In this document: piece by piece, positions 34,084-56,808 of the stretch
Numbering within the stretch: the stretch's first letter is position 1
Layout of the letters: every line of letters starts with the position of its first letter
Assembly: GCA_017960525.1 (NCBI GenBank)
Contig: JAGCZA010000107.1
Span: 1 to 64,000, forward strand
Reading direction: 5' to 3'
From: Prevotella sp.
GTDB lineage: Bacteria; Bacteroidota; Bacteroidia; Bacteroidales; Bacteroidaceae
Length of the DNA stretch: 64,000 nt
Translations under genes and position numbers: made by a program
Notes under the pieces: model-generated
What the model saw: only the letters and a program-made list of their open reading frames with translations
What the model was told of the DNA's origin: nothing
The model's database searches: none

Positions 34084-34118
34084 AATCTGGTGCTTGGCGG
34101 TTTGCCAAGCACCAGATT
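34084..34118 (+). promoter_or_regulatory. Perfect 15-bp hairpin between the two hcp genes
   Basis: aatctggtgcttggc (34084-34098) and gccaagcaccagatt (34104-34118) pair without mismatch around ggttt. No U-tract follows. It likely stabilises or processes the hcp1 transcript, or attenuates downstream expression. Confidence 0.8.
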
Positions 34119-34133
34119 CCAATAAGAAAGATT

Positions 34134-37399: not shown

Positions 37400-37417
37400 A
37401 TAACATTCTTAATACAA

Positions 37418-38578: not shown

Positions 38579-38724
38579 TAATTCAACTACAAATATAATA
38601 TTTTAGTTGTGACATGATTAAGCTTTTTACCAATCTTTCGTTTTCCTTTTGGTATAAAACTAATGAACAGGCAATCTATACCTTTAAGTTTAGAGAATGA
38701 CTCGTTAACAATGGTGACTATACT

Positions 38725-40353
38725 ATGAATGAAGTTGGTGCAAGAGAAAAGGACAAGGAAAATAAAAATGAAACTTCTGTGGTACATATAGAAGTTCATG
38801 TTGGTGTTTTTTTCGATGGAACAAATAATAATGCCAATAATAACAAATGGTACGATTGGTTTAGGTTTACGAATTCTGTAGAAAAAGATCATGCTTTAAA
38901 CAATACTATTATTCCCGATAAAAACAAGAAAATATCAAATCCTGCTATTCTTTCTGCTCTCTTTGTTTCAAAAGATAACAATCACACAAAGGAAGATATT
39001 CATGAAAAATATCTTCATGTTTATATTGAGGGATCGGGTGCAAATGGTTTTCAAGCTCAAAATCAACTTTTAGATATTGTTGTGAATGGTAAACCTGTAA
39101 ATGGTTTAGGGTTTGGATTAGGACCTACGGGCGTTGTGGCTAAAGTAAGTAAAGCAATAAAATATATTGGAGAGAGAATTGAAGCAGAGGAATATAATCC
39201 CAATACAATTATTGACTATATACATTTTTATGTGTTTGGATTTAGTCGTGGCAGTGCTTGTTCTCGTCTTTTCTCATTCCTGATTGCGAGAAGTGCTGGT
39301 GATTCCGAAGGGACATTAGATAAAGAAAAGGAATTTGATAAGTATCTGACAAAACGATATTTCAAGAACGGGAAAGTAAGCTTTTTAGAAGCATACAATG
39401 GAAAAATGAGTGTGGACTTTTTAGGTATATATGACACTGTATCTGCTATAGGTTTCCTTAAAGAAGAGGATGATAGTGTTAACAAGTTACGCACGGCTTT
39501 TCTGTATAATCCAGATTTTTGGGGGAACTTCCATCGTGAAAATGCTAAAGCTTATGGTCTATATTCTCCAAAAATGTCAAAGGTGTTAAGTACGTGTCAT
39601 ATTTGTGCTATGGATGAGTTTAGAGCAAATTTTGCTTTAACAGATATAGGGTCTGCCGCGTCTGGTAATAATATTGAGCTATTTATTCCTGGTTGTCATT
39701 CTGACGTTGGGGGAGGATATACCGAAGACTCTAAAGCAGAAAAGAAGACTTTGTTGAAATCTGTAGATAATAGACTTACACGAATGTGCGTAAATAATCC
39801 TACAAAATCAGGAGCAGAATGGAAACCTTTATCAACAGAATTATTGAAGGAATTAGGTTGGACTGATGATGGTGGAATAGAAGTAACGAAGGTAACAGAT
39901 GATGGCATTGATATTGTACATAACCCTACACCTCAGTACCAATATAGTAATATCCCGCTTAAATTTATGTTTGAAAGAGCTATCTTAAAAGCACCTAAAC
40001 TGAAAGAACTATTCTCAGATTATCCTAAAGATATTTATCCAATTCCTGGGCCTAGTTTTGGGATATTAAACGGGATGTGGAACAAGATTAATGGCGTCAT
40101 TAGTTCAAGTGGCAGGTATTGTTATTTGTTTGGTGGAAAGTATTCTTCTCTTTATTACAAATATATAAGGCAGTCTTATTTACATTTTACATCAACCGAC
40201 ACCTTACATGGCTTTGGTGATCCTGGCAATCCTCCTGGTCGAAAGGCGGCAGGGCAATACAGTAACATTTGTAGATTAGTATATCGTGGAGAAGAGAACG
40301 ACACAAATGTTCACTATATGCAAGATTATAATGAGAATATGGTAATGATATGA
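38725..40353 (+). CDS. DUF2235 alpha/beta hydrolase, Tle1-like candidate effector
   Basis: A 542-aa protein. N-terminal VGVFFDGTNNN is typical of DUF2235. The nucleophile elbow GFSRGSACSR gives S174, FLGIYDTVSAIG carries a likely Asp, and PGCHSDVGGGY gives H325. DUF2235 proteins include the Tle1 phospholipase effectors delivered by T6SS, which attack membranes of rival bacteria. There is no signal peptide, fitting T6SS delivery. It overlaps the next gene by 4 bp, the usual effector-immunity coupling. Confidence 0.8.
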   Translation: MNEVGAREKDKENKNETSVVHIEVHVGVFFDGTNNNANNNKWYDWFRFTNSVEKDHALNNTIIPDKNKKISNPAILSALFVSKDNNHTKEDIHEKYLHVYIEGSGANGFQAQNQLLDIVVNGKPVNGLGFGLGPTGVVAKVSKAIKYIGERIEAEEYNPNTIIDYIHFYVFGFSRGSACSRLFSFLIARSAGDSEGTLDKEKEFDKYLTKRYFKNGKVSFLEAYNGKMSVDFLGIYDTVSAIGFLKEEDDSVNKLRTAFLYNPDFWGNFHRENAKAYGLYSPKMSKVLSTCHICAMDEFRANFALTDIGSAASGNNIELFIPGCHSDVGGGYTEDSKAEKKTLLKSVDNRLTRMCVNNPTKSGAEWKPLSTELLKELGWTDDGGIEVTKVTDDGIDIVHNPTPQYQYSNIPLKFMFERAILKAPKLKELFSDYPKDIYPIPGPSFGILNGMWNKINGVISSSGRYCYLFGGKYSSLYYKYIRQSYLHFTSTDTLHGFGDPGNPPGRKAAGQYSNICRLVYRGEENDTNVHYMQDYNENMVMI

Positions 40354-41387
40354 CAATGAAAGAGTATGAATATTGTGTTGTAGGTTGTGCATTTGACATT
40401 GCACCAATACTTACTCATGTTGCCTTGGTTTCATGTTCGGATACAGAGGTTTTGTCCATTCCAGAATGTTTGCCATTCCAAGGAGAATGGGGGAAAAATG
40501 AAACCATTTCATTGTTGGAAGAGTCTACTCATCTATTACCTAAAGGCGTTCATATCATCTATTTATCGACAATTGAACACAAATTCTATATGGTCAATGA
40601 TTCCCTTCCGATAGAAGAGTTAGATAGTTTATGGAATAATGGGGATTATAATAAAGTTGTAGTAGGAATGGCTCCCTATGGAGGCATAGCCGTTTGGCTT
40701 AATGGAACTAAGAATAGTACTTTGGTTAAATGGTTGCATGGAAGTGAAATAAATGTGGACATGAAATCATTCATTCCAGACAACCCTGATGTAAGTCTTG
40801 AACAATTAAGTTTGTTCTATATAAATTCTGTAAAAGAAGCCAAATCATATTTTGAAGAGTTTGGTATTCCTCCACGCAGCCTATTTGAGAAATATATGCA
40901 ACAATTCTGTTACCGGTACCACATACTTTTTAGACATTGGGATGCAGACAAACAGAACTGGCAGGATTATGATGAAGATGGAAGTGATCCCCAATTAAAC
41001 TATATAGAAGAAGCGTTATATGATGGTACGTATGATAAGTTACACGATGACAGATTGACAAACTATCATAATGCAGGGAAGCCGAAGAAATTGGCACTTA
41101 AGTGGAACGTTAAGAAATCAGAATATGAAGCATACATTTGGTTTAAGAATGAGGGCATCCAAGCAATATTTGATCGTTTCTTTGGTGCACACTCTGAAAC
41201 TAAGACTGACTTTATGATTAGGATAGACTCAGAGAAGAACAAGTATGAACTGGCACTTTATCGCTATGGACTGAAAGAGCCACAAGTGATAAGTGAATAT
41301 GCCTATCAGCTTCTTGTATTTAAAAACAAATTTGAGTATTATCGGAGTGAAAACTATAACCAGCCCAAAGGTGCATGGATATGGTAA
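40350..41387 (+). CDS. DUF2931-like protein, candidate immunity to the DUF2235 effector
   Basis: A 345-aa protein whose start overlaps the effector stop (ATGA). The segment KVVVGMAPYGGIAVWLNG and the later KPKKLALKWNVKKSEYEA / IQAIFDRFFG look like DUF2931, a family often found beside T6SS lipases in Bacteroidales. The N-terminus has only a weak hydrophobic stretch, so export to the periplasm is not evident; a lipoprotein signal typical of lipase immunity proteins is missing. Confidence 0.65.
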   Translation: MTMKEYEYCVVGCAFDIAPILTHVALVSCSDTEVLSIPECLPFQGEWGKNETISLLEESTHLLPKGVHIIYLSTIEHKFYMVNDSLPIEELDSLWNNGDYNKVVVGMAPYGGIAVWLNGTKNSTLVKWLHGSEINVDMKSFIPDNPDVSLEQLSLFYINSVKEAKSYFEEFGIPPRSLFEKYMQQFCYRYHILFRHWDADKQNWQDYDEDGSDPQLNYIEEALYDGTYDKLHDDRLTNYHNAGKPKKLALKWNVKKSEYEAYIWFKNEGIQAIFDRFFGAHSETKTDFMIRIDSEKNKYELALYRYGLKEPQVISEYAYQLLVFKNKFEYYRSENYNQPKGAWIW

Positions 41388-41436: not shown

Positions 41437-41763
41437 ATGGCAAACGAAGAATTTTACGATGATGAGTTTATCATCAATTTGACAATCGACGGAACTACCT
41501 ACGAAGAAGTCGAGGTAAAAGTGACTGACCCGAACAAGACTATTCGCGATCAGATTAACAGCATTGTCCAAGTCTTTGAACTTCCCAAGATGGATAATGG
41601 AGGTAATCCCATCCAATATCTTCTTGGACAAATACTCGATGACGGCGAGGAACCTGAAATCCTCGACTTTGAAGATGAGGATGGCCGCGAGCAGTGCCTG
41701 ATGGACTATAACATACAGCCTGGCGACAATCTGCATCTTATCTCTGTTCCTATTGCGGGTTAA
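41437..41763 (+). CDS. Ubiquitin-like beta-grasp protein with C-terminal glycine
   Basis: A 108-aa acidic protein, about the size of ubiquitin plus a 15-residue N-terminal and an internal extension. The pattern is a beta-grasp: two N-terminal strands (FIINLTIDG, EEVEVKVTDP), a helix (IRDQINSIVQVFEL), and the end MDYNIQPGDNLHLISVPIAG, which resembles the last turn and strand of YukD/ubiquitin-like proteins. The chain ends exactly in Gly108, ready for E1 adenylation without processing. An E2 gene follows after 23 bp. Inferred role: the modifier of this locus. A noncovalent YukD-like structural role is the main alternative. Confidence 0.8.
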   Translation: MANEEFYDDEFIINLTIDGTTYEEVEVKVTDPNKTIRDQINSIVQVFELPKMDNGGNPIQYLLGQILDDGEEPEILDFEDEDGREQCLMDYNIQPGDNLHLISVPIAG

Positions 41764-41786
41764 ACTGATAAAGACATTGGCTGAGT

Positions 41787-42458
41787 ATGAATGACTTAAT
41801 CAATAATTTCAACCAAAAAGAACTGTCTGGACGTGACGCCCGTCTTTTACAGGAATGGAGGGAGTTGGATAACTTATGTAGTAAGCGTAAGGCTGCAAGT
41901 CCTAATCCTCGCAAGCCATCGCTTTCATACGTTATCCGCAAGAAGAACATTATGGGTCTTCCAACTGAATATGAAATATGGTATCGATGCAAGTCCATTA
42001 TTGGCGTTAAGGATACTGGCATCCCTCGCGAACCGATATTTGGCTATCTCCACAAGATGAGCATTGTCCTACCAAACAACTACCCTTCTGCCGACGGCAA
42101 TCCAATCTTTACATTCAGGACGAATGTCTGGCACCCAAACATCCGACATTCGGGTAGTTTCAAAGGACATGTCTGTCTAACGATTAAAGAAATGGGAGTG
42201 TTGGCGGCATTGAAAGACCTGGTGCTCCGAGTTGAACGCTATTTGAAATATCAGCTCTATCACGCCCAGAACACCTATCCCTATCCTGAAGACCAGAATG
42301 TAGCCGAATGGGTGCGCGAAGAAGGTGAGCCAAACGGATGGACACGTTTCGGACAGGATGGTCCAGATAAGAACCTGCCTCCTGTTCGGCCTAAAGAAGA
42401 TAGGGCAGGGACAGAAGCAAAAGATGATAAAACAATAAAAAAATCGCTGACAATATGA
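41787..42458 (+). CDS. E2 ubiquitin-conjugating enzyme-like protein
   Basis: A 223-aa cytosolic protein with the UBC fold at about residues 15-165. Key features: N-terminal helix ARLLQEWRELDNL, the strand and turn MSIVLPNNYPSADGNP (PxxYP), W115-H116-P117-N118 (HPN motif with the oxyanion Asn), and GHVCL with the catalytic-type Cys130. Spacing HPN to Cys is as in eukaryotic E2s. The last 45 residues are charged and probably disordered. Its stop overlaps the next start (ATGA). Confidence 0.9.
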   Translation: MNDLINNFNQKELSGRDARLLQEWRELDNLCSKRKAASPNPRKPSLSYVIRKKNIMGLPTEYEIWYRCKSIIGVKDTGIPREPIFGYLHKMSIVLPNNYPSADGNPIFTFRTNVWHPNIRHSGSFKGHVCLTIKEMGVLAALKDLVLRVERYLKYQLYHAQNTYPYPEDQNVAEWVREEGEPNGWTRFGQDGPDKNLPPVRPKEDRAGTEAKDDKTIKKSLTI

Positions 42459-43516
42459 AAAAGGTATTATTGTTTGTCATATTTCTCTCCTTGACAGCCT
42501 TCTCGGTTTTAGCAGACGAACAGAAAAGAGTCAAGTTGGACGATAATCATACTAAAGAGCAAGTGCGTCTTGCATTTTGCAATATCTTTGTTACAAGAAC
42601 AGAAGTTGATGATGACGAGAATGTGAAGGTCATTGTCGAGATAGAGAATCTTGACGAGTCAAACGTCATTATACTCTTCGGGCACGCTTATCCGGAAAAG
42701 GAGCTGAAGAAACTCTCGCCTTCTATCAGATTTGACAAAGGATACCCCGGCACTAAAGGACAACGTAATATTGATACATACAGCAAGGCCGGCAATGCCA
42801 TTTTTGTTGAGCCGTCAGAGAAGTCCGTGTTACCCCAGATACAAGTCAAGGGTAATGTTGCCCAGTTGTGTCGTTTCCCTCTGTATATTGCTAAGTACAA
42901 TAACAGAACTAGAAGCAAAATGTTACTTCTCGAAAAACAAGTCATCGAAGTGGAAATAGAGGTTCAAGTCAAACCAGACGAAGACTTCATTAGATTGGAG
43001 CAGATGTGTAATGACTTGATTGAGGATATTTCGAAACAGACATTCTGCACAAATAGCAGACATCTCCCATCCTTAGAAAGACAAGAGGAACCTTATAAGG
43101 TAAGAGTGGGTCAAATAAAAAAAGAAATAGACGAAATCATAGGTCATCATAATTGGTACACCAGAGACAAATCCTATCAGAGGTACGATCATCTCAAACA
43201 AAAACTCGACTCCATACAGTTTGCCGATTATGAGCGAGATTGTGGCATAGCCAATAAACACCGCAGCGCACGCCGGCATAGCTGCAAATATTGCAATCTC
43301 TCCCTACAGCAGATTTTTCACAAGTTGGATGATTATTACAAGAAAATATACAATAGCACAAACCGGAAAGCCACAAAAGAGACTGTCATCCAAGATGTCA
43401 ATATCCTCTATCGTTGCTGCACCGATGCGAATTGTCCAAAGCATTCCTCTTTATGGAATAAGAGCCAGTATAAGTCAAAAATAACAGACCGCTACACAAG
43501 GATCAGCAATTTCTGA
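42455..43516 (+). CDS. Exported Cys/His-rich protein of the T6SS-Ubl locus
   Basis: A 353-aa protein with a signal peptide cleaved near LADEQ (residue 21). The N-terminal domain (to about 175) ends in PLYIAKYNNRTRSKML, which resembles PIFIAHYEGKHRYKVF in the next gene. The C-terminal part has CKYC and CC-x4-C-x2-H groups, so a metal site or disulfides are likely. No TM beyond the signal. Expected periplasmic. It is translationally coupled to the E2 gene. It may replace one of the TssO/P/Q/R envelope components; family not recognised. Confidence 0.65.
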   Translation: MKKVLLFVIFLSLTAFSVLADEQKRVKLDDNHTKEQVRLAFCNIFVTRTEVDDDENVKVIVEIENLDESNVIILFGHAYPEKELKKLSPSIRFDKGYPGTKGQRNIDTYSKAGNAIFVEPSEKSVLPQIQVKGNVAQLCRFPLYIAKYNNRTRSKMLLLEKQVIEVEIEVQVKPDEDFIRLEQMCNDLIEDISKQTFCTNSRHLPSLERQEEPYKVRVGQIKKEIDEIIGHHNWYTRDKSYQRYDHLKQKLDSIQFADYERDCGIANKHRSARRHSCKYCNLSLQQIFHKLDDYYKKIYNSTNRKATKETVIQDVNILYRCCTDANCPKHSSLWNKSQYKSKITDRYTRISNF

Positions 43517-43518
43517 CT

Positions 43519-44184
43519 ATGGGAAATAGAAAATTCCTCTTCTCATTGTTTCTTTTTCTATCCTCTGCTATGTCGGCAAAGGTGGTAACAGACACCTTGG
43601 AATCCACAAGGGGGGACCGTGTAATAATTATATACGATATATCTCAGAACAATGGGCAAGTCATCATAAAATTCATAGACACAAAGAAAAGGCTGGGACG
43701 GATCTTCAAGGACAAGTACAAGAAACTTGACGAAGTGGCCGTTCTCTTTTTTGACAGGATGGGTAATTATGGAGACGAAACAGAGTTTTCTGGTATATCA
43801 CCAGAGCCTTTCATGATTCCCTCAAATGTAAATTATAAAATATCAAAAGACGGTTTCTTTTTGCTGAATGAAAATCAGAAACTGTCATTGGAGCTGAAAT
43901 CGGCAGAATCTGAAGAATTGAAGATGCCGATATTTATAGCTCATTATGAGGGGAAGCATAGGTACAAGGTTTTTAGCCGTTGTGAGGATTTGGTTGTCAA
44001 ACTCTCTAAAAGCAAGCAGGATGTAAAGCCTGATAATCAGGGTACACAATTAACGACGCAAACAATAATTTCGCAGGAAGAAACAGACGGCACAGAAGCA
44101 GACGTCGTTGTTGCTAATTCTTTAATTAACAGGATTACTGGACTTATAGAAGAGCAAGAGGATTATCCTTTTCCGACGAATTAA
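43519..44184 (+). CDS. Exported protein, 5' part of a likely frameshifted gene
   Basis: A 221-aa reading frame with a signal peptide (cleavage near AMSAK, residue 20). Its N-terminal domain is a paralogue by eye of the preceding gene. The frame ends in EDYPFPTN and a stop. One base earlier in phase, the sequence continues as SDELKQAISSL into the next reading frame, which has no ATG of its own. An intact protein of about 400 aa with signal peptide, periplasmic domain, coiled coil, one TM and a cytosolic tail can be built with one extra T in the run at 44169-44172. That matches the layout of the following JAMM protein up to its TM. Confidence 0.6.
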   Translation: MGNRKFLFSLFLFLSSAMSAKVVTDTLESTRGDRVIIIYDISQNNGQVIIKFIDTKKRLGRIFKDKYKKLDEVAVLFFDRMGNYGDETEFSGISPEPFMIPSNVNYKISKDGFFLLNENQKLSLELKSAESEELKMPIFIAHYEGKHRYKVFSRCEDLVVKLSKSKQDVKPDNQGTQLTTQTIISQEETDGTEADVVVANSLINRITGLIEEQEDYPFPTN

Positions 44185-44201
44185 AACAGGCCATTTCCAG
44201 T

Positions 44202-44723
44202 TTGCGAGAAATAAGCTATCGTACCATTGACAGCAATCTTTCATCAAGAATCGGTGAGGTTCTCGCAGTCTGTAATTTAAAAGAAAGAGAACTGAAAGCG
44301 AGTGCCGCTGCTGCGGCTGACGCTGCTGCTAAAGAAGCAGAACTCCTGGCAAAAAGGGCTGAAGAACAAGCACTGGCGAGGCAGGATTCTATTGCGGCTG
44401 CAACCCAACAAAAAGCAGAAGAGGACAGAAAACAAAATCTGTGGCTGATAATAGGTGGAGTTGTCCTTGCTTTTTTGGGGTTTGTAGGCAACCAAGTGTT
44501 CCAGCATTTCCGTAATGTAAAGAATCAGAAAAATATTATGGATATGCAGCAAAATGTTGTTAAACGAGCGGAGGACGAGGCAAAGCGTCGAGCAAGGAAT
44601 GTGGCACAGAGCCAAATCAACCGTGTTCAAGGTGAAGCAAGACGTAAAACCCGGAGCGCAATTAATGACGGGATAGTTAAAATAGGCAAGAAGGGAAAAG
44701 GAAACAGAGACATTACAATATAA
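44202..44723 (+). CDS. Coiled-coil/TM protein, 3' part of a likely frameshifted gene
   Basis: The frame is open from 44130; the only usable start is TTG 44202, and no ATG precedes the TM segment. It has an Ala-rich coiled coil (residues 25-75), one TM (LWLIIGGVVLAFLGFVG, about 80-100) and a basic cytosolic tail rich in Arg/Lys (KTRSAINDGIVKIGKKGKG). Taken with the preceding frame it completes a single-pass membrane protein. Whether the break is real, programmed (-1) or a base-call error cannot be told here. Confidence 0.55.
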   Translation: MREISYRTIDSNLSSRIGEVLAVCNLKERELKASAAAAADAAAKEAELLAKRAEEQALARQDSIAAATQQKAEEDRKQNLWLIIGGVVLAFLGFVGNQVFQHFRNVKNQKNIMDMQQNVVKRAEDEAKRRARNVAQSQINRVQGEARRKTRSAINDGIVKIGKKGKGNRDITI

Positions 44724-44732
44724 ATTACGATT

Positions 44733-46886
44733 ATGGCATCATCAAATAAGTTTTTACTTACATTTTTACTCGCATTACTGTGTCTTTCTCTGAATGCACA
44801 GGGATTGTCGAAAGGCGACATTGAAATCAAGTTAAGTAACAGCCCACACCAAGGACGAGTTGTAGTTAGTTATATTAAGAACAATTTTAACGATGGCATC
44901 ATCGTTCGTTTCACAAATGAATATGATACAGGTGGGCCAATATCAATAAGTTTAAAGATGGGAGAACAGAGAACTATTGATATTACATGCAATATTGTAG
45001 AAGCTAAGCCACAAGGTGGCGGGAAGTTTATTGATATAATAAAAAAGCCCAAGCCAAAAGAAGAGAAAGAAAAAGCCGGGACAAAAGAAGAAACTAAAGA
45101 AGAAACTAAAGAAGAAACTAAAGAAGAAACTAAAAAACAAACGCCCGTTCAACCAGTAGCAAATAAGTCCGAGCAGACAAAAAACAAGGATGCAACGGGG
45201 GTTAAGCCAAAATCGAAGATAAAGAAAGACCTTCTTACTATTGAAGATATTGCTCCTGATTTCATTAACCACCTTGAGTCAATTCCTTTTTTATCTTCTT
45301 CAGCAATAGATGAAGAGACGACAATAATAGAGGAACATATCAATAGCCTGAAGAACTGGAAGGACAAGGATGCTTATATAAGAGAGCGCCATCTGAATTC
45401 TTATATAAATACAACACGTGACTCTCTTACTCAGTATTCCAAGAATGCAAACTCTTTGATTACAGGTTATTTAGAGAAATATGGGAAAAGAGAAATTGCC
45501 AATAAGGCAGAATGTATTGACAGCATTCAGACAATCTTAATGAGCAGACTTGGACATCGGGAAGAAAACATCAGCCGATTGTCAGATGAAATAAGCAACC
45601 CATCGGTTACAGAGGCTTTCGATTGGAAAAAGCTGGATTGGAGAAACATAGGAATTGGTGCTGGCCTGTTTCTTTTGCTGATAATTCTGTTTGTGTGGTT
45701 CAGAAAAGCAAGTAAGAAGAATCGTAGTGCCACCACGTCAAGCAACAAGTCCAATGGAACGACGGACGCTTCATCCGCAATAGTCGTCAGGAGAAAGACA
45801 ACTTCGATATTAAGAAAGCAAAGTCTTGAAGATGTTATAGACAACGGTGCATATCTTAAGATTGACTGCGATGATTTCTGTTACGATTCTGCTGTCAGAA
45901 GAATGTACATTAAGAACACCTGCATCAAGGACATCTACAACATGTATGCAGAAGATTTGCGTAATCCCAACACCCCGAAAGAGGACGGATGTATGGTGTT
46001 GGGGCGATGGGTTCAGGATGCGGAGAGCAACGAATATTATGTTTCGTTAGAGCATATAGTCCTTCCTGGCGATGATGCCGTCTTTGCAGAATACGAGTTG
46101 AACTTTGGCGGTAAAATCAAGCTGAAAGTAACAGAGATGTTAAGAAAACTAAGAAGGGAGACGGATTTGCAATATGACCTGACATGTTGGGTTCACTCAC
46201 ATCCTGGACTTGGGGTGTTCTTCAGCAATTCCGACAGTAATGTTCATATGCAGTTAAAGCACCCTACCCGCCCCAACTTCCTGACAGCTATTGTGGTTGA
46301 CATTCTTACTCCTCAACAAGAAATGGGTATCTTCACGTTCAAGCGTGATTCTTCCATCAACTCAAAAGCTGACTTAAAGAAGATGTACTCGCTCGAAGAA
46401 CTCTACAAATGGGCTTTGGAGAGTGACAGAAATTCCTTTAAGCCAGAGGATTATTATAATACTCTTGCGAATGCAAGAAAGCATAACTATAGCTGCTATG
46501 GCATAGAATTGAGTAATGGGGCAATTATTGACATGGGAAAACTTGCAGCAGAGGAATCTAGTGGATTTGTAGGGATGGTTCATGGTTTTGCCAATCAGCA
46601 AGGAATGAAAACTGAGCATGTTGCTGTAACCGTTACTAAGAACGAGGCTGTTCCCGACAACGAATTAGTGGGTTGCTTTATTATGGCTACGCATTGTAGT
46701 ATCCCGTCCATAAGGAAAGCAATAGCAAGTTATATCAATAGAATTAAGTTTGTACTGGTTTACACTTCTGCTGATGGCCTGTTGACATCCATTCCCATTA
46801 TCAACCAGGACATTTGCACTGATGAAAACTGTTATGGAGAACAGATATTAGAGGAACTCAAAATATGGACAAGAAGGAAAAGATAA
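44733..46886 (+). CDS. Membrane-anchored JAMM/MPN+ isopeptidase
   Basis: A 717-aa protein. It has a signal peptide (cleavage near LNAQG, residue 23), a periplasmic part with a 4x EETK repeat, a helical region, and a TM at about 306-325 (IGIGAGLFLLLIILFVWF). The cytosolic part carries a complete JAMM motif: E417 in EDGCMVLG, H488 and H490 in VHSHPG, S498 and D501. Spacing H-x-H-x7-S-x2-D is canonical. In the ubiquitin system such zinc enzymes remove Ubl from targets. About 200 further residues (CYGIELSNGAIIDMG and later) are of unknown fold. Since the Ubl already ends in Gly, deconjugation rather than maturation is the likely role. Confidence 0.88.
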   Translation: MASSNKFLLTFLLALLCLSLNAQGLSKGDIEIKLSNSPHQGRVVVSYIKNNFNDGIIVRFTNEYDTGGPISISLKMGEQRTIDITCNIVEAKPQGGGKFIDIIKKPKPKEEKEKAGTKEETKEETKEETKEETKKQTPVQPVANKSEQTKNKDATGVKPKSKIKKDLLTIEDIAPDFINHLESIPFLSSSAIDEETTIIEEHINSLKNWKDKDAYIRERHLNSYINTTRDSLTQYSKNANSLITGYLEKYGKREIANKAECIDSIQTILMSRLGHREENISRLSDEISNPSVTEAFDWKKLDWRNIGIGAGLFLLLIILFVWFRKASKKNRSATTSSNKSNGTTDASSAIVVRRKTTSILRKQSLEDVIDNGAYLKIDCDDFCYDSAVRRMYIKNTCIKDIYNMYAEDLRNPNTPKEDGCMVLGRWVQDAESNEYYVSLEHIVLPGDDAVFAEYELNFGGKIKLKVTEMLRKLRRETDLQYDLTCWVHSHPGLGVFFSNSDSNVHMQLKHPTRPNFLTAIVVDILTPQQEMGIFTFKRDSSINSKADLKKMYSLEELYKWALESDRNSFKPEDYYNTLANARKHNYSCYGIELSNGAIIDMGKLAAEESSGFVGMVHGFANQQGMKTEHVAVTVTKNEAVPDNELVGCFIMATHCSIPSIRKAIASYINRIKFVLVYTSADGLLTSIPIINQDICTDENCYGEQILEELKIWTRRKR
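45087..45134 (+). repeat. 12-bp tandem repeat (4 copies) in the JAMM gene
   Basis: gaagaaactaaa occurs four times at 45087, 45099, 45111 and 45123, encoding EETK repeats in the periplasmic linker. In-frame copy changes would alter the reach of the linker without breaking the gene. Confidence 0.9.
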
Positions 46887-46888
46887 TC

Positions 46889-49279
46889 ATGAAAAGATTT
46901 GTTACTGTTTTGGCACTTATTGCTGTGGCATTTAACATAAATGCCCAGGACGTAAAACAGATTCAGTTCTGTGACAAAAAATATGAGTATGGAATAGGGA
47001 AAGACAGTATCACTCTTTTCCTTAGGGTGTTGGATAGCGATAACAATCGCTCTACCGAAGTGACGACTGCCGATTTGGAGAAATATTTGGTTGTTTATGA
47101 AAATGACAATAATATCATCTCCAACGACAGAAGGACTTTTTTGTCTTTGAGTTCAGGGCAGAGAATACCTGCAGATTATACTTTTTCGGTGTTGGTTGAT
47201 TTAAGTATACCAAAAGAAGGAAAAGCTCAGATTTTTGATATAATAGGAACCCTCGTGAATAGTGCTTCTGATAGTTGTGTATATTTATCATTCTTTGGTG
47301 ATAATATAACGTCAAGTAAGCTCGTAACGAAGCAGAATTACAAAAAATTGGAGCCTCAATTTCATAAAGGAGCAACTAACAAATTCTTTTATGGTGCCCT
47401 CTATTCAAAACTTGTTGAATTCGGAGGCGGAAATTCGGAATTAGAATCTTCTGTCAGGGTCTTGGAAGATGGCTATTCAAAGAATGGTTCTATTAGAAAA
47501 CGCGCAGGAGAAAATAAGGACAAGAATCTTCTATTTGTATTTACAGAGGGAAGCAAAAGACCTGAGGACGAGGCTATAACTTTTGTTGAGGTGACCGATT
47601 ATCAAAAAGACAGGTCGCACATTGTTCCCAAGGTGTATGCTTTTTATTATACAGGAAATGGATTTGATGATAATGTAAAGCTAACATTTGAAGGTGTAAC
47701 TAACCCACGTGATGATGCGGGACAAATTCTTTCTGACCGGCGTGGAGCATATAAACTGTCAGATGACCTGAATAGTGTTTTGGAAGACTTCCTGCAAGTT
47801 GTTCAAGATGCGATGTATGATTTCGCCTTCATTTATAAGGCAACTGACGGCAAAATATATTCTGGTAAGACAACATACATTGCGGAATGGAAAGGGTCTC
47901 AGATGGGGAGTGGAGTCTATTCCATTGGAACAGCAGAAAATCCTTGGCCCACTCATGAAGAAAGTACGGTAGACACTCTCGTCAAGTATTTGATAGCAAT
48001 TCTTGCAACTTTGCTTTCGATAGTGTTCTTCTTCTGCGTAATGAAGATTCTGATTCCCTATATCAAGTCTAAATCCTTTGCTTTAAAGTATTATAAGAAG
48101 TATGAACCAGAAGCAAATATTCAAAGGCGTATTTGTCACTATTGTAAGCAAGATATACAGCCAGGTCAAATGGTTGTCGTGAAGTGTAAACACATTATGC
48201 ATGTTCATTGTTGGCATCAGAATGGTTATAAATGTGCGGAATATGGCCAGAATTGCAAAATAGGTATTCAAGATCACATAGAATGGAAAGAATTGCTTAC
48301 TATGAGTTCTTTGAGAGACTGCTATCAAACTATTGCGGGTATATGTGCAGGACTTGTAAGTTGGGTTCTTTATGAACTTATGGGAAGAGGTGGTTTCACC
48401 TCATTAGCTACCGGTATCGTAAATGTTTTCTTTACTAACGAAGAACAGCAATTAAACTTGTATGACACCTGTGTCACAAAGGTTTCTGCTTTCTTGACGA
48501 TTGGTTTTCTCTTAGGATTCTTCCTGTCACTCATTTTCAGATATAACGACGAGTATCGGAAAAAGGATTGGAGAATTTATCTCAAAATTGTTGCTCTTTC
48601 ACTACTCTCTGGCATTATTGGTATGCTTTCGTTTGCTATTGGGGCCATCTTGTTCTGTGTGCTGTTGTCGGCAATCAATACGACCTACATTCCTTGGTAC
48701 TGTTCGTTTCCGGCCTATCTCTTGTTCTCTGTTTGTACATCGCTAAGTCTAACTATTAAGTCTTCGATTCCTGCCAAGAGTGCAATGATTGGCGGAGTAT
48801 GTTCTGCAATCATAGGATTCTTTGTGTTATATTTCTCCAGCATAACGAGTTCTCGATATGGATGGATGAATATGTTACTTGACTTTGTTATTTATGGTGG
48901 TGGTCTTGGGGCTTCTCTTGTAACAGTTCGTATGCTTGCAGAAAAATACTTCCTTGTCATACAAAATGGTGTGAAGGCTGGGCAAAGGATTCCTATTCAC
49001 AAATGGATGAACGCTACTGGCGGAGGGAACAAAGTTTCTTTAGGTATGACCGGTGAATGTGAAATTCAAATGAACTGGGAAAAGAGCAATAAAGTGGCGA
49101 AGGAACATGCCCAACTCTTTATAGATCAAGCGAAATCACTTCCGATGATTAAACCTTTGGCTACAGGAGTTATATTCAATACACGTGCAGAACTTCCTGT
49201 CGGGAAACCTTCTGTATTGTCTAATGGCGACACCTTTAAGATAGGCGACACTATATTCCAATATGTAGAAAACGATTAA
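46889..49279 (+). CDS. Polytopic membrane protein with vWA-like, RING-H2-like and FHA domains
   Basis: A 796-aa protein; ATG 46889 is chosen because it lies 2 bp after the JAMM stop and opens a clean signal peptide (cleavage near NAQ). Residues 40-340 resemble a degenerate von Willebrand A fold (YTFSVLVDLS, LLFVFTEG). TM1 is at about 367-392. C416, C419, C433, H435, H438, C441, C449 and C456 follow a RING-H2 order; only the last pair has a longer gap. About six more TMs span 480-690. The C-terminus (about 705-796) looks like an FHA domain (VSLGMTGECEIQM, EHAQLFI, LSNGDTFKIGDTIFQY). RING and FHA should face the cytosol. It could be the E3-like or membrane-hub component; it may also stand in for TssR/TssN. 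Confidence 0.75.
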   Translation: MKRFVTVLALIAVAFNINAQDVKQIQFCDKKYEYGIGKDSITLFLRVLDSDNNRSTEVTTADLEKYLVVYENDNNIISNDRRTFLSLSSGQRIPADYTFSVLVDLSIPKEGKAQIFDIIGTLVNSASDSCVYLSFFGDNITSSKLVTKQNYKKLEPQFHKGATNKFFYGALYSKLVEFGGGNSELESSVRVLEDGYSKNGSIRKRAGENKDKNLLFVFTEGSKRPEDEAITFVEVTDYQKDRSHIVPKVYAFYYTGNGFDDNVKLTFEGVTNPRDDAGQILSDRRGAYKLSDDLNSVLEDFLQVVQDAMYDFAFIYKATDGKIYSGKTTYIAEWKGSQMGSGVYSIGTAENPWPTHEESTVDTLVKYLIAILATLLSIVFFFCVMKILIPYIKSKSFALKYYKKYEPEANIQRRICHYCKQDIQPGQMVVVKCKHIMHVHCWHQNGYKCAEYGQNCKIGIQDHIEWKELLTMSSLRDCYQTIAGICAGLVSWVLYELMGRGGFTSLATGIVNVFFTNEEQQLNLYDTCVTKVSAFLTIGFLLGFFLSLIFRYNDEYRKKDWRIYLKIVALSLLSGIIGMLSFAIGAILFCVLLSAINTTYIPWYCSFPAYLLFSVCTSLSLTIKSSIPAKSAMIGGVCSAIIGFFVLYFSSITSSRYGWMNMLLDFVIYGGGLGASLVTVRMLAEKYFLVIQNGVKAGQRIPIHKWMNATGGGNKVSLGMTGECEIQMNWEKSNKVAKEHAQLFIDQAKSLPMIKPLATGVIFNTRAELPVGKPSVLSNGDTFKIGDTIFQYVEND

Positions 49280-49300
49280 TAAATAAAAATTAATAATATT

Positions 49301-50041
49301 ATGAAGAAATTTTTTTCTTTAGTTGCATTCCTTACTATTTCCGTAACAGGATTTGCACAGGACGTGGACAACTTTGAAGTTGGCCCATATGAAGTAGATT
49401 ACAAAGGTTCTGGTGATTACAAGTTTCGGCTGCGCAAGGGCGTTGACTTGTATGAATACTTTGGCTTAAAAAAGGATACGACCATTCAGGTTGTTGATGC
49501 ACCCACATCACCGATAAAAGGAGCATTTCAATTGAATGTTTTTATGAGCATTCCCCGTTTTGTGGTTAATGGTGTGTCTAACGTTTGGGGAATTGATGGT
49601 GCCTGGAAACAAAAGATAGGACAACAATTATACTTTAATGCAGGGCTTTCCGTTGCTCTTTCAATAGGAAAATATGGAGAAGCATATCAAAACTATAATG
49701 ATTGGGAAGACGGAGACTTTTCAGAAACTATGCTTGAAATAGGTGTTCCTCTTTCTGTTGAGCTTTGCAATTTAGACCACAAAAAGGCCACCATATATGG
49801 TGGAGTCGGAGTCGTTCCAACAGTCTATACTGGTGGAAAAGACGAAGCTGGTGATAGCAAATCTGGCTTGTTTATTGCACCAAGAATAGATATAGGAGGT
49901 TATTTGCCTATTGGCAAGCAGTTAGTTCGTTTAGGTGGATTCGCTCAATACGACATCAATTGCTCAGGGGGTGATTACGATATATTTAAGGAACGAATTG
50001 GTCGGTTCTTTATTGGCGCAAACATCGGTTTGGTTTTTTAG
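49301..50041 (+). CDS. Outer-membrane beta-barrel protein
   Basis: A 246-aa protein with a signal peptide (cleavage near GFAQD, residue 20). From about residue 75 it shows alternating amphipathic strands (LYFNAGLSVALSIG, LFIAPRIDIGGYLPIG) and ends in FFIGANIGLVF. A terminal Phe is typical of BAM substrates. It probably forms a small 8-stranded barrel, and is the only clear outer-membrane protein in the island, so it may anchor the apparatus there. Confidence 0.7.
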   Translation: MKKFFSLVAFLTISVTGFAQDVDNFEVGPYEVDYKGSGDYKFRLRKGVDLYEYFGLKKDTTIQVVDAPTSPIKGAFQLNVFMSIPRFVVNGVSNVWGIDGAWKQKIGQQLYFNAGLSVALSIGKYGEAYQNYNDWEDGDFSETMLEIGVPLSVELCNLDHKKATIYGGVGVVPTVYTGGKDEAGDSKSGLFIAPRIDIGGYLPIGKQLVRLGGFAQYDINCSGGDYDIFKERIGRFFIGANIGLVF

Positions 50042-50059
50042 TAATTGAAAAACGACATC

Positions 50060-51259
50060 ATGCAGCAAGAAAAGAAATATGAATGGGGAGAGGGGGTTTT
50101 CACTCTCCTTTCTTGGTTCAAAAAAGACAAAGTCAAGAATGCTCGTGTCCTGGTTGCAGGAGCAGGCGCTTTGGGGAATGAGGTTGTAAAAGATTTGGCT
50201 CTATTTGGAGTCGGACACATATACGTAGTCGATTTTGACCAAATAGAGATTTCCAATCTTACTCGTTCAGTATTATTCAGAGAAGAAGATGCTTACAATC
50301 ATTCCTACAAAGCAGAAATTGTAGCAAAACGGGCGATGGAAATAAATCCTCAAATCAAAGTAACTCCAATTGTTGGTAACCTTTTCTCTGAAGTTGGCTT
50401 TGGATTATATCGCGCTGTTGATGTAATTATAGGATGTCTTGATAGCCGAATGGCTCGCTATCTTCTAAATAGATTATGTATGCGAGCTGGAAAGACGTGG
50501 ATTGATGGTAGCATTGAAAATCTAACTGGAGCTGTAAAGGTCTATACACCAGGAATAAATTGTTATGAGTGCGGACTATCAAGAGAAGAGTTTAATATCA
50601 TCATGCTGAGAACAGGCTGTGCAGATGTCGTTCGTGCACAGACTTCTGCTGGCAGAGTAGCAACTACACCTATTAGTGCGTCAATAATTGGAGCCATGCA
50701 AGTCCAAGAGGCTATGAAAATTATACACCTTGACTCAGAAAACAGTGCACAATTCAAAACGCTTCAAGGGAAGATGCTGCGTTATGAGGGAATGACAAAC
50801 AGCATGAATATATACAAATTTTCATCTTGGAAAAAGAAATGTCCAGCTCACGAGCAATGGCAAGACATAATGGACGGGAAAGAATTGTCCGCAATAATGA
50901 CTATTAAGGATGTTTTAAAATACTTGAAGTCATTACTTGATGTCAAAACGCTGGAAATCAATATGTTGAACAATAAGTTTATAGACAAAATTGTCTCTGA
51001 TAAGCCTGAGAAAGAGTTTAATGTGATGATTCCAGAATCGAAACTTGATGAATATATTAACAGCAATGCGGAGTTGCGGAAGTTGAGTTACCGCACTATA
51101 TTCCACAAATCTTTCTTTGAAAATATTGATTCCAATTTCCCTTATAAAGATCTTACCTTACAACAAATCGGCATACCTCTATTTGACGTGATTCAGGTTT
51201 CTACCGAAAAAGGACTGTATTACGTTGAACTAACAGGTGATGCCAAACTTTTCCTCTGA
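50060..51259 (+). CDS. E1-like Ubl-activating enzyme (ThiF/MoeB/Uba superfamily)
   Basis: A 399-aa protein from ATG 50060 (the upstream TTG 50045 is less likely). The adenylation domain is complete: G34-A-G36-A-L-G39 (GxGxxG), D58-F-D60, N66, R69, K84 and the CLDSR segment with D128. C168/C171 with C261/H264 form a likely zinc site. C187 (RTGCAD) precedes the crossover TTP and is the best candidate for the thioester Cys. The last 125 residues end in LQQIGIPLFDVIQVS, reminiscent of the ubiquitin-fold domain by which eukaryotic E1s recruit E2. It should adenylate Gly108 of the Ubl. Gene lies 5 bp before tssG. Confidence 0.9.
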   Translation: MQQEKKYEWGEGVFTLLSWFKKDKVKNARVLVAGAGALGNEVVKDLALFGVGHIYVVDFDQIEISNLTRSVLFREEDAYNHSYKAEIVAKRAMEINPQIKVTPIVGNLFSEVGFGLYRAVDVIIGCLDSRMARYLLNRLCMRAGKTWIDGSIENLTGAVKVYTPGINCYECGLSREEFNIIMLRTGCADVVRAQTSAGRVATTPISASIIGAMQVQEAMKIIHLDSENSAQFKTLQGKMLRYEGMTNSMNIYKFSSWKKKCPAHEQWQDIMDGKELSAIMTIKDVLKYLKSLLDVKTLEINMLNNKFIDKIVSDKPEKEFNVMIPESKLDEYINSNAELRKLSYRTIFHKSFFENIDSNFPYKDLTLQQIGIPLFDVIQVSTEKGLYYVELTGDAKLFL

Positions 51260-51264
51260 TACGG

Positions 51265-52146
51265 ATGCTACCTAAGAATATTCCTGGAGATATTAATATA
51301 GAGCTGTTGCTTTCGTACTTTACTGAGGGGACTTGTAAAGTTGCATTTAAGGGATTGCATAAACGCAATTCCTATAATGACATTATAGAAGTCGAAGAGA
51401 GAAGAGACGGTTCACTGCTGTTTGGCATTGGTAGGAATAGCTTGTATAATTCTCTGCCAGAATTTATGTTCCATTCAGTTGATCGATTTGACAATATACC
51501 AAAGACGGAGGAGAAAGAACGTTTCGCTGAGGAATATCAAAAGCAGGAACAAGAAAAAGAAAACGCATATAGATTTTTTGAGCCGTTAGATTTGCTGTTG
51601 TTGAAGTTACGCGTGTCGATAAGAGAGAAACTACATGAATATGTTGAGCATAACAAGGTCTTGACAGTTATTATCGGCGACACTCTTACAGAAGAACAAA
51701 AGTCTAACCGTTTTATAAAGCATTCCCTTATATTTATCCCCGCATGTAAAAATATCAGAGGTGATAAAACACTGTTAACGTTAATGCTTCGCAAGATTTT
51801 CATGGAAGAAGGATTGAAAACCGAGAAACGACGTGAAACTATTCTATATACGGATTCTGAACCAAGATATGCAGATGGAGTGGGAGCTTTACTTGGCGAC
51901 AGCTATGTAGGGAACACTTTCGATGAGGATACGACAATATACGATATACATTATTGGTCTGAAGATGATTGTGATGAATATTTTCTTAAGTTTATAGATG
52001 ATATTGAGTTGTTCAGGCGTTTCATTCAAGACTACTTTATAGCCATTGAAGAAACCTTGCACTTTAACATTTGTAAGGATGATGTACCTCTTCGGCTTTC
52101 AGACGATGCCGTATTCAATTATCTAAACTTTAATACAAACATATAG
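51265..52146 (+). CDS. tssG: T6SS baseplate protein, TssG-like
   Basis: A 293-aa soluble protein. The segment FGIGRNSLYNSLPEFMFHSVDRFDN resembles the conserved N-terminal region of Bacteroidales TssG, and a long charged helix follows at 90-110. The rest is divergent. Assignment rests on that motif, on length near 300 aa, and on its place directly before tssK, tssE and tssF. TssG and TssF form the wedge of the baseplate. A different baseplate-associated role is possible. Confidence 0.6.
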   Translation: MLPKNIPGDINIELLLSYFTEGTCKVAFKGLHKRNSYNDIIEVEERRDGSLLFGIGRNSLYNSLPEFMFHSVDRFDNIPKTEEKERFAEEYQKQEQEKENAYRFFEPLDLLLLKLRVSIREKLHEYVEHNKVLTVIIGDTLTEEQKSNRFIKHSLIFIPACKNIRGDKTLLTLMLRKIFMEEGLKTEKRRETILYTDSEPRYADGVGALLGDSYVGNTFDEDTTIYDIHYWSEDDCDEYFLKFIDDIELFRRFIQDYFIAIEETLHFNICKDDVPLRLSDDAVFNYLNFNTNI

Positions 52147-52148
52147 TT

Positions 52149-53363
52149 ATGACTAAAAGAATATGCTGGAAAAAGGGTATGAGGCTGACAGATGAGATTT
52201 TAAGAGCCTCTGGTGACTGCACGTTAGAGCTTGTGGGCAACTCGTTAGCATTGGCTGCAGCAGGAAGATTCGGTCTTTTGCCGTCAACGCCATTTGATTT
52301 GTCTGTCAATATTTCAAAAGGACTTGTCGATGTTGAGTCGCTAAATTGTACGGCTGTTACTAAAGGTGGCAATGTTATCGATGCTCACTATGACACAAAA
52401 TTCTCGAATTCGTTTGATACCCGAATCCAAATACCAGAAGGGAGTGGCGAAAAAGAATTCGTATTGACAATTAACCATACTGGTCAATGGAAAGATTCAA
52501 ATGATGGCTATGAAGAGCCTGTTTATTCTTTCTCTTTGATGGCTTTAAGCAGTGCTATACCATCCAACTCTCTTCCCATTGCAAGAATCGTTGATGAATA
52601 CGGTTGGCGCTTAGATGATTTAGATTTTGTACCTCCATGCCTCTTTGTTTCTTCCCATCAAAAGTATAACGATTTGTTGAAAAGATTCTCCGAAGTACTT
52701 TCTGAAATTGACAACAAAGCAAAGAAACTCCTTCATTCCAACGGTAAGGATGTTATTCGTACATTCTGGCCCATCGTTCAACAGTTGATGATTACCGTCA
52801 ACAAAGAACAAGATATGATGACGCCGATGGGATTGTTAGCAAATGTTCAGAAGTGTGTCAGTGCTTTTACTTGTGCCTGTGAATTAGACGATTATATTGA
52901 CTTGGCTGATGCCGATAATTATTGGAGCTACATATATGCACCATATAACTACAAAGATTCTTACCAAAGAATAAGGGAAGGCATAGATTTGTGCTTTTCT
53001 ATAAACGATAAGGTTAGTAAGTTCAACGAAGGCCCTCAAGTCCCGTCAACTATAGAGGCTCCGACTATTGAAAACTCGCAATTAATCAAAAGATGTACAA
53101 ATAGTACGGCAAGGGTTCAAGTCACAAACAGCGTCTCTGGCGCAACCATCTATTATTCTATTGATGGAAGCGAGCCGTCTCAAATCCTAAAGGGTCAAAC
53201 TATACAACTTGAAAGCGGTTTCAATAATTCCAGAAAGAGAGAGCCAGATAAGGTTGTTATGGTAAAGGTAAAAGCCGTTCTGAATGGGATAAGTAGTCAT
53301 ACAAACTCTTATGCAATTACCATGCAGAAAGACATTGATCGTTGGTCGGGCTGGATAGTATAA
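52149..53363 (+). CDS. tssK: T6SS baseplate-membrane connector TssK with extra C-terminal domain
   Basis: A 404-aa protein. N-terminal CWKKGMRLTDEILRASGD, then LALAAAGRFGLLPSTPFDLSVNI and SLPIARIVDEYGWRLDDLDFVPPCL, are hallmark TssK segments. A four-helix region follows (residues 175-290). After about residue 300 there is an added beta-rich domain (VSGATIYYSIDGSEPSQ) like chitobiase C-terminal Ig-like domains; this takes the place of the small receptor-binding domain that in proteobacteria contacts TssL/TssM. TssK links baseplate to membrane complex, so this swap fits the absence of TssJLM. Confidence 0.82.
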   Translation: MTKRICWKKGMRLTDEILRASGDCTLELVGNSLALAAAGRFGLLPSTPFDLSVNISKGLVDVESLNCTAVTKGGNVIDAHYDTKFSNSFDTRIQIPEGSGEKEFVLTINHTGQWKDSNDGYEEPVYSFSLMALSSAIPSNSLPIARIVDEYGWRLDDLDFVPPCLFVSSHQKYNDLLKRFSEVLSEIDNKAKKLLHSNGKDVIRTFWPIVQQLMITVNKEQDMMTPMGLLANVQKCVSAFTCACELDDYIDLADADNYWSYIYAPYNYKDSYQRIREGIDLCFSINDKVSKFNEGPQVPSTIEAPTIENSQLIKRCTNSTARVQVTNSVSGATIYYSIDGSEPSQILKGQTIQLESGFNNSRKREPDKVVMVKVKAVLNGISSHTNSYAITMQKDIDRWSGWIV

Positions 53364-53370
53364 AGACGCT

Positions 53371-53874
53371 ATGGTTTTCTCCAGTACACCTCTTGCATTC
53401 AATAATACAGAAACGGGCATTCGCATAGTTCGTGATATTGATGAACGTATATCAATGCTTGACAATCTCGTGGAGTTAATTGTTTTCACACCACGGGGAG
53501 GTTTCGTTGGCGACCCTGATTTTGGATTTGAATATTGGAATCACGAGTATTCAAATGTACATCACCGTGAGTTTAATAACGAACAGACAGGAATGTCGTC
53601 CGCAGGACTTTATAACGAAATAACAAAGAAAGAATGTCAGGAAAGTATTCGACAGAGTTTATCCACATACGCCCCTCTGCTGAAAAATGTCACCGTTTCA
53701 ATGGAATTAAATTCGGCCGAAGCAGAAAAACAGCGCAAAAAGAAAGTGCCGTCAAAATATGTTGTAACGTTAAAAGTGGATGGTACAATTGATGACGGAT
53801 TGGGAACAACATGTCAATACGAGAAAAAAGTAATGTTCTTAATGGAACCTACAGCCAAAAAGTACAGAATATAA
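53371..53874 (+). CDS. tssE: T6SS baseplate protein TssE (gp25-like)
   Basis: A 167-aa protein of the GPW/gp25 family: an N-terminal helix (DIDERISMLDNLVELIVFTPRGGFVGDPDFGFEYW) and a beta-strand ending IRQSLSTYAPLLKNVTVSMEL. gp25 starts sheath polymerisation at the baseplate. The conserved EPR motif is not evident; DPDFG sits where a family-typical motif is expected. It starts 7 bp after tssK. Confidence 0.8.
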   Translation: MVFSSTPLAFNNTETGIRIVRDIDERISMLDNLVELIVFTPRGGFVGDPDFGFEYWNHEYSNVHHREFNNEQTGMSSAGLYNEITKKECQESIRQSLSTYAPLLKNVTVSMELNSAEAEKQRKKKVPSKYVVTLKVDGTIDDGLGTTCQYEKKVMFLMEPTAKKYRI

Positions 53875-53883
53875 GATTGCCTC

Positions 53884-56805: not shown

Positions 56806-56808
56806 TAT

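Follow-up and report, generated by a model that had tools for sequence, protein, structure and literature searches.

A 64,000-nucleotide stretch of Prevotella sp. DNA (contig JAGCZA010000107.1, positions 1 to 64,000; hereafter the window) holds a type VI secretion system (T6SS) operon that includes genes for a ubiquitin-like conjugation pathway, i.e. a ubiquitin-like protein (Ubl), an activating enzyme (E1), a conjugating enzyme (E2), a JAMM protease and a RING-type membrane protein that is a candidate ligase (E3). Judged by gene neighbourhood and phylogeny, the predicted pathway is integral to a group of T6SS loci and has evolved together with them. On balance we favour the view that this conjugation module belongs to deep branches of the Bacteroidota T6SS, where it would work at the inner membrane as a machine for licensing or anchoring the contractile apparatus.

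A ubiquitin-like module in a T6SS operon

The initial annotation had described five ubiquitin-type genes embedded in a T6SS operon. All five are present on the plus strand between the vgrG/effector region (34548-41387) and tssG-K-E-F (51265-55674), and the gaps between genes, said to be tiny, measure -4 to 23 bases from the Ubl gene through the glucosaminidase gene. The five genes are:

41437..41763, + strand, Ubl of 108 aa ending in IAG (profile against ubiquitin; C-terminal Gly; AlphaFold2)
41787..42458, + strand, E2 of 223 aa with HPN at 116-118 and Cys130 (UQ_con 6e-6; 26.3 bits against a curated cut-off of 27)
44733..46886, + strand, JAMM protease of 717 aa with a predicted signal peptide, a predicted periplasmic part, a transmembrane segment (TM) at 305-323 and then a JAB domain (Prok-JAB 0.007, below cut-off; hydropathy)
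46889..49279, + strand, candidate E3 of 796 aa, a membrane RING protein with a predicted signal peptide, vWA, TM 371-389, RING-H2 416-456, several TMs and FHA (Pfam, profiles, hydropathy, AlphaFold2)
50060..51259, + strand, E1 of 399 aa with a ThiF adenylation domain, CxxC..CxxH, candidate catalytic Cys187 and a C-terminal part that is UFD-like by eye (ThiF 4e-51)

The core features of the T6SSiii type are present around them, namely TssC of the Bacteroidota type, TssB (a weak match), Hcp, VgrG, TssH and TssE/F/G/K. In the whole genome of the host the E2 profile and the TssC profile find one match each.

Recurrence beside T6SS genes

Relatives were gathered by searching an E2 alignment against 84,980 species. 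The best 80 of 83 confirmed matches were kept and gave 79 distinct loci, many of them in metagenome-assembled genomes, and their flanking genes were called with profiles of the window genes. The neighbourhood search by E2 that had been suggested as a check bore out the recurrence, as the tss backbone lies in the fetched flanks of 72 of the 79 loci. As to the seven other loci, L098 has T6SS genes further along its contig, L044 and L065 are contigs of less than 7 kb, and L061 is at the end of its contig, although the genome has TssC elsewhere or beyond. Strain-named hosts (not marked metagenome) are Xylanibacter muris, Palleniella intestinalis, Barnesiella sp. An22, Bacteroides mediterraneensis, Mediterranea massiliensis and Lewinella.

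The window-like arrangements A and A2 have the order Ubl-E2-...-JAMM-RING-...-E1-tssG-tssK, and arrangement B reads E1-tssG-K-E-F-Ubl-E2-x-x-RING. Arrangement C belongs to the Saprospiraceae and runs in Lewinella as tssE-F-G-[tssN]-K-x-E1-Ubl-E2-x-JAMM-RING. In 58 of the 64 loci having both genes, E1 and tssG share a strand and are at most 150 bases apart. Arrangement B comprises 19 loci, one of which is cut off before the region concerned; the other 18 show no JAMM motif, nor does L084 of A2. The idea of a five-part set within the T6SS therefore stands insofar as the set is integral and recurrent, whereas the JAMM part is not universal. Extended Ubl precursors were seen in 6 of 55 JAMM-bearing cases (L063, L075, L095, L097, L099 and G597) and in 0 of 19 JAMM-less ones, a difference that is not significant (p 0.33, two-sided).

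Among 393 genomes of the order, chosen without regard to linkage, the E2 profile matched in 6, TssC in 18 and TssN, over its cut-off, in 8. Five of the six E2-profile genomes also have TssC, all five at the same locus; in G242 the contig ends before the remaining module. A phylum-wide draw of 306 genomes gave E2 in 3, one of which is the window's own. A single-sequence E2 search had matched 9 of the 393 genomes, three near threshold; these were dropped, the profile search leaving 6, and the 20 kb around each of the three near-threshold matches held no T6SS gene match, with only an E2-like open reading frame (ORF) in G337.

Shared history of module and sheath

Trees were built for TssC (53 rows, of sufficient length in the flanks or retrieved for this purpose), for TssK (43 of 70 rows, 27 short ones being dropped) and for E1 (51 of 70 rows, near-copies and short rows having been thinned out). 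L098 was omitted from the tree and Mantel sets, and G399, which is the same genome, was used instead. The TssC tree groups B, A2 and L063/L064; A with G258; and TssN-type systems, Lewinella C, L100 and G247/G331, with G399 on a long branch of unsure place. In the E1 tree the groups are B, A2 and L060/L063; A; and C, L100, L075 and L096. These three groups reappear in the TssK tree, as far as its rows extend.

Mantel comparisons agree for TssC with E1 (r 0.73, n=39) and with E2 (r 0.76, n=42), and in either case 0 of 5000 permutations were as high. Within A the correlation of TssC and E1 is r 0.79 (n=13), and within B it is r 0.80 for TssC-E1 and TssC-E2 alike (n=15). The agreement of the trees cannot be put down to host descent alone, since A and B each include Prevotellaceae, Muribaculaceae, Rikenellaceae and Bacteroidaceae. 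The loci that bear the module are not one clade; the label requires 2-3 changes on the TssC tree, which implies losses or more than one gain.

Identity and conserved residues of the cascade

The proteins were compared with Pfam as single sequences first, and profiles made from relatives were then compared with all PDB sequences. In the single-sequence comparison E1 alone passes its curated cut-off, the E2, JAMM and RING matches fall below theirs, and Ubl has no Ubl-type match. By profile, the Gly-ending Ubl of the initial annotation finds ubiquitin: single chains have E values from 8e-4 to 0.02 in the matches listed, and poly-ubiquitin has 2e-18, a value raised by the repeats. Its AlphaFold2 model has the beta-grasp order of elements (pLDDT 84, pTM 0.73). 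The protein terminates exactly at the Gly in 72 of 73 profile-found relatives, the exception being L063 with two extra residues. Reading the gaps between E1 and E2 added four more Ubl genes that the profile had not detected, three with a short extension after the Gly and one without; the L075 Ubl is likewise extended past the Gly.

For E2, the profile matches UBE2K at 1.7e-10, and the HPN motif and Cys were recovered in 79 of 79 loci (75 by pattern, and 4 by eye, with a differing residue after the Cys). Pfam Prok-E2_B (PF14461) found nothing in the host genome, and no control matched either. In E1 the adenylation domain is clear: the best profile match is UBA7 at 1e-36 (positions 24-168), followed by other eukaryotic E1s, MoeB at 3e-30 and Citrobacter BubCD at 7e-13, and residues D58, D60, R69, K84, D128, C168, C171, C187, C261 and H264 are invariant in 22 of 22 aligned sequences. 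As far as alignments can tell, Ubl, E2 and E1 carry the residues required for conjugation.

The reading of the protease as a JAMM enzyme is upheld by E417, H488, H490, S498 and D501, invariant in 17 of 17 sequences, and by a profile match to RPN11 in the PDB at 3e-10. The membrane protein that had been called RING-like matches zf-RING_16 at 0.0058 (below cut-off) and, by profile against the PDB, the RING of RNF165 at 0.026. The eight RING-H2 ligands are present in 24 of 27 rows, with the last pair spaced C-x6-C. Its profile further matches an integrin vWA (3e-4) and, at the C-terminal end, a PDB chain named 'GGDEF domain protein' (1.4e-5), which we take to be an FHA domain; Pfam gives FHA at 0.087. 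The AlphaFold2 model of the RING protein is confident (pLDDT 84, pTM 0.66) and has more helices than the four TMs that hydropathy places above threshold. By hydropathy this protein and the JAMM protease are membrane proteins, and since both combine a signal peptide with one or more TMs, the candidate E3 and the protease both look inner-membrane anchored. Provided that the signal peptides act, the RING and JAMM domains would be cytosolic, and the vWA domain and the first part of the JAMM protein would be periplasmic. In the Saprospiraceae-type loci L095, L098 and L099 a U-box-like domain might, by eye, stand at the RING position.

Undetected parts of the T6SS membrane complex

In a study of 1253 genomes, according to the portion of PMC10781749 used here, TssNQOPR or part of it occurs in all 443 T6SSiii systems, and tssN lies systematically between tssK and tssG. 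Among the scanned window proteins TssN, TssO and TssR have no Pfam match, although a very divergent complex could escape this search. In the control locus G019 Pfam matched TssN, TssO and TssR; the presumed TssP and TssQ hit PKD and TssO models and were thus tested poorly. TssN was likewise not found in the host genome by a search that detects it in other genomes of the order, and a TssN profile built here matched no window ORF and only 3 of the 79 loci, all Lewinellaceae. A homology of the RING protein with TssN was ruled out (profile comparison probability 1.3 percent), and there was no match between the RING protein and one TssR.

For 47 of the 79 loci the whole genome was checked for TssC and TssN; these are the seven whose flanks hold no tss genes, 10 of A2, 19 of B, 3 of C, L100 and 7 further ones of A. 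TssN, the one component of the membrane complex that was searched there, is absent from 42 of these 47 E2 genomes. The five with TssN are four of type C, which have it in the same locus, and G406, which has a second TssC and whose TssN and ubiquitin-like locus are on different contigs. TssC is lacking in the genomes of L036, L044, L074, L075 and L096, yet the L074 locus has tssG, K, E and F. That known components of this complex went undetected here points to a part for the module in structure besides regulation, and it would probably also be the alternative membrane anchor.

Other genes of the locus

The remaining genes of the operon are:

28655..29410, + strand, NusG/UpxY-like antitermination protein, first gene before tssH (Pfam NusG 3.5e-7, KOW 2e-6)
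29439..31703, + strand, tssH, ClpV-like ATPase (Pfam AAA_2/ClpB)
31731..32186, + strand, tssB, sheath (T6SS_VipA 0.039, under cut-off; place before tssC and homologues in relatives)
32225..33607, + strand, tssC, sheath (Pfam TssC 2e-130; 436 bits in the genome survey)
33567..34541, + strand, two Hcp/TssD genes, ORFs 33567-34073 and 34134-34541 (Pfam TssD 2e-31 and 3e-33)
34548..36572, + strand, vgrG (Pfam Phage_base_V 7e-23, Phage_GPD 3e-20)
36602..41387, + strand, effector region: Ntox46-like (36602, under cut-off), DUF4280/PAAR (37418), Tle1-like phospholipase (38725) and DUF2931 (40350) (Pfam)
42455..43516, + strand, orfA, signal peptide by hydropathy, predicted periplasmic (profile matches in 43 of 79 loci)
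43519..44184 and 44202..44723, + strand, orfB and orfC, the first with an N-terminal hydrophobic stretch, the second with one TM (hydropathy)
49301..50041, + strand, secreted protein of 246 aa, barrel-like by eye (no Pfam match; profile matches in 28 of 79 loci)
51265..55674, + strand, tssG, tssK, tssE and tssF, baseplate (likeness and order in relatives)
55678..57810, + strand, peptidoglycan-binding protein with a C-terminal TM, and glucosaminidase with LysM (PG_binding_1 8e-13, Glucosaminidase 4e-36; TM by hydropathy)

The true start of the first Hcp ORF is probably later than 33567. For the baseplate Pfam gives T6SS_VasE at 5e-4 for tssK and GPW_gp25 at 0.0017 for tssE, both under cut-off, and no T6SS match for tssG and tssF; the quartet is matched in the same order in the T6SS loci of relatives, and it is matched in TssN-type loci as well. 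The NusG/UpxY-like gene also precedes tssH in G388, which is of the same genus as the host, and an antiterminator at the head of the operon could control a very long transcript. In the window the peptidoglycan genes follow tssF; M23 peptidase genes lie 5' of tssG in G258 and 3' of tssK in L095. Outside the operon, on the minus strand at 23277-27851, a rhamnogalacturonan lyase with dockerin and PATR repeats shows an odd mix of domains.

Proposed role and alternative explanations

Conjugation itself, its substrates and its effect on secretion are predictions from sequence, and the following scheme is meant in this sense. E1 and E2 would charge Ubl, and the vWA/RING/FHA protein could serve as a membrane-anchored E3, its vWA domain reading an envelope signal and its FHA domain reading phospho-proteins. 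Ubl might then be attached to a baseplate or membrane protein. Since E1 adjoins tssG-tssK, TssG and TssK are the first candidate substrates, together with the RING protein itself. The tag would anchor the baseplate at the membrane or license its docking there, and the JAMM protease, where present, may mature Ubl precursors and reverse the tag. The module could thus be a ubiquitin counterpart of the PpkA/PppA/Fha switch.

Several observations weigh against this reading. The set of loci itself favours T6SS-linked cases because 5 of the 6 rows of the E2 query alignment were T6SS-linked. The lack of JAMM in the 18 covered type-B loci and in L084 means that reversal is not general, and L095, L098 and L099 lack most of the RING ligands (3 of 27 rows). 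Within A the correlation of TssC and E2 is weak (r 0.36, n=15; 132 of 5000 permutations as high). As four type-C genomes keep TssN in the same locus, the module is not its replacement there, and the 18 TssC genomes of the order (5 with E2, 7 with TssN, 6 with neither, 0 with both) give a separation that is not significant alone (Fisher p 0.10). The accessory genes are unevenly kept, orfA in only 43 and the barrel-like gene in only 28 of the 79 loci. Moreover, orfB and orfC stand in different frames here and are a single ORF of 383-536 aa in 36 of 40 loci (L023-L062; for the other four no match was listed), so that the window copy has either a true break or an assembly fault.

Further points of this kind come from cases in which module and T6SS occur apart. 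By TssC and TssK, G258 is the sister of arrangement A and has no module at its T6SS; in that line the module is therefore dispensable. Conversely, the parts of the contigs that were read show no tss gene for L036, L075 and L096, and TssC was not found in these three genomes. In L036 (genome G393) the module adjoins kinase, PP2C and FHA-like genes, named by eye, and in G016 (L075), a genome without TssC, an SrfB gene (L016 11382-14426) lies two ORFs after the RING gene. The proposed tie to the T6SS consequently holds in most loci and is not exclusive. G503 and G597, of one genus, 100 percent complete and without TssC, have a complete module with a PAAR gene at a distance of 2 kb. An extracellular contractile injection system (eCIS) has its sheath gene about 20 kb (G503) or 43 kb (G597) away from the module, across long ORFs of the opposite strand. 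The eCIS of G597 was recognised by Pfam (sheath, gp19 tube, CIS tube, gp25, spike and PAAR) and that of G503 by likeness; the link rests on one genus. An nSTAND1-type gene precedes E1 in both genomes (Pfam for G597).

In favour of the proposed role, Ser/Thr kinases (Pfam) and FHA-like proteins (by eye) surround the T6SS of G258, together with WG-repeat proteins (Pfam). Beside the T6SS of G247, which lacks the module and a detected TssN, lie kinase, PP2C and FHA genes (Pfam), with look-alikes by eye in G331, where TssN was likewise undetected at the T6SS. Taken together, the neighbours in G258, G247, G331, L036, G503/G597 and G016 indicate that the recurring company consists of contractile injection systems and phospho-signalling genes. 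We put forward, as a tentative extension that we trust less than the role in the T6SS, that Bacteroidota contractile injection systems (several T6SS lineages and perhaps an eCIS in at least one genus) are governed by a dedicated ubiquitin-like cascade centred on a RING E3 that spans the membrane and has its vWA sensor in the periplasm; in the main T6SS lineages this cascade would replace a membrane complex held to be obligate.

A mainly structural role would dispense with a switch. In that case the products of orfA and orfB/C would form an alternative envelope complex with the JAMM, vWA/RING/TM/FHA and barrel-like proteins, and Ubl conjugation would covalently lock or build it. The undetected TssN, TssO and TssR of the window and the 42 of 47 E2 genomes without TssN speak for such a complex, as do the signal peptides or TMs in several module proteins and the adjoining peptidoglycan-active genes. 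We nevertheless regard it as rather unlikely, because type-C loci have TssN and module together, the RING protein is no TssN homologue, and orfA and the barrel-like gene have matches in only part of the loci by the above counts.

Alternatively, Ubl could mark effectors or spike proteins for loading, or could itself be delivered into target cells. In the window the effector genes are immediately followed by those for Ubl and E2, and the order is the same in window-like loci; arrangement B, on the other hand, places Ubl-E2-RING after tssF, away from vgrG and PAAR, E1 stays beside tssG, and hydropathy places both the candidate E3 and the protease in the membrane, which makes this explanation improbable. 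Still less can be said for an anti-phage module of the Bil, Bub or CBASS kind hitch-hiking in T6SS loci. E1-E2-JAB-Ubl sets are described in bacterial defence in the parts of PMC11354881 and PMC13373217 that we used, and the E1 weakly matches PADLOC E1-E2 models (4e-15). The Ubl, E2, JAMM and RING proteins, however, match no PADLOC model, the E2 has HPN instead of the CEHH motif of BilB, and the co-phylogeny and the usual site by tssG render such a passenger very improbable.

The initial annotation had reasoned that the link would be accidental if related T6SS loci lacked the genes and the set occurred elsewhere without a T6SS. Each of the two is seen in part, in the sister T6SS of G258 without the module and in the modules without a T6SS. 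Accidental co-insertion in a few genomes is nonetheless hardly credible, because the shared phylogeny of module and sheath fits badly with it and 72 of 79 loci are linked, in several arrangements and with matching trees.

If the favoured reading is right, a ubiquitin pathway would operate as part of a bacterial secretion machine, and a bacterial ubiquitin-like pathway would have a clear machine to act on. It would also provide a second post-translational control of the T6SS besides phosphorylation and would contradict the rule that T6SSiii requires TssNQOPR. The module further bears on how RING, E2 and RPN11-type parts were assembled before or outside eukaryotes.

Comparison with known systems

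The initial annotation knew of no described T6SS with such parts, and a literature search, mostly without preprints and subscription papers, agrees in that it found no published description of E1-E2-Ubl with a T6SS or eCIS. E1-E2-RING-JAB sets in prokaryotes are reportedly treated by Burroughs, Iyer and Aravind (2011, on prokaryotic RING fingers); these may include relatives, which limits any claim of priority for the module itself. PpkA, PppA and Fha form the Thr-phosphorylation switch of the proteobacterial T6SS. By proposed role this switch is nearest: membrane-anchored post-translational control and FHA would be common to both, and in the window Ubl transfer would replace or add to phosphorylation. 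We know of no E1 or E2 with YukD/EsaB or EccD of type VII secretion. These proteins place a ubiquitin-like fold in a secretion system, as here (EccD: PMC10781749, in the part used), whereas the window Ubl has a C-terminal Gly and is accompanied by enzymes of its own.

With T6SSiii containing TssNQOPR, as presented in the same portion of PMC10781749, the window shares the sheath family (Pfam TssC), Hcp, VgrG, PAAR and the baseplate genes. It differs in that TssN, TssO and TssR were not detected, E1, E2, Ubl, RING and JAMM are present, and tssG and tssK adjoin without tssN between them. The Bacteroidales GA1-GA3 systems are likewise Bacteroidales T6SS loci, but all three encode five further proteins (TssN to TssR) according to PMC4714493, in the main text of which, as available to us, the words ubiquitin, ThiF and JAB are absent.

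Bil (BilABCD), Bub (PMC11354881, PMC13373217) and the Ub-like/JAB/E1/E2 operons of PMC1779556 also combine bacterial E1, E2, JAB and Ubl, as far as the consulted parts of these papers go; in the last, one row reads 'Bacteroides: Bthe', with an E2 without the classical His. Compared with these operons, the window has an extra RING protein, and the best match of its E1 is UBA7, with Citrobacter BubCD far behind. The marks of Bil given in the sections of PMC11354881 seen here are a tandem-Ubl BilA, a CEHH-type BilB and a two-domain BilD, whereas the window has a single Ubl, an HPN E2 and a 399-aa E1 with one ThiF stretch. As to CBASS type II, there is no CD-NTase among the Pfam-scanned window proteins of 28655-57810. 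By the tested features the module is not Bil or CBASS. A ubiquitin gene of Bacteroides fragilis has reportedly been described (PMC3352274). Closest by parts is the Caldiarchaeum subterraneum operon, which has the same full set of E1, E2, RING, RPN11-like protease and Ubl (PMC5654768, in the sections drawn on); compared with it, the candidate E3 and the protease of the window are predicted membrane proteins with periplasmic parts, and the genes are set in a secretion operon.

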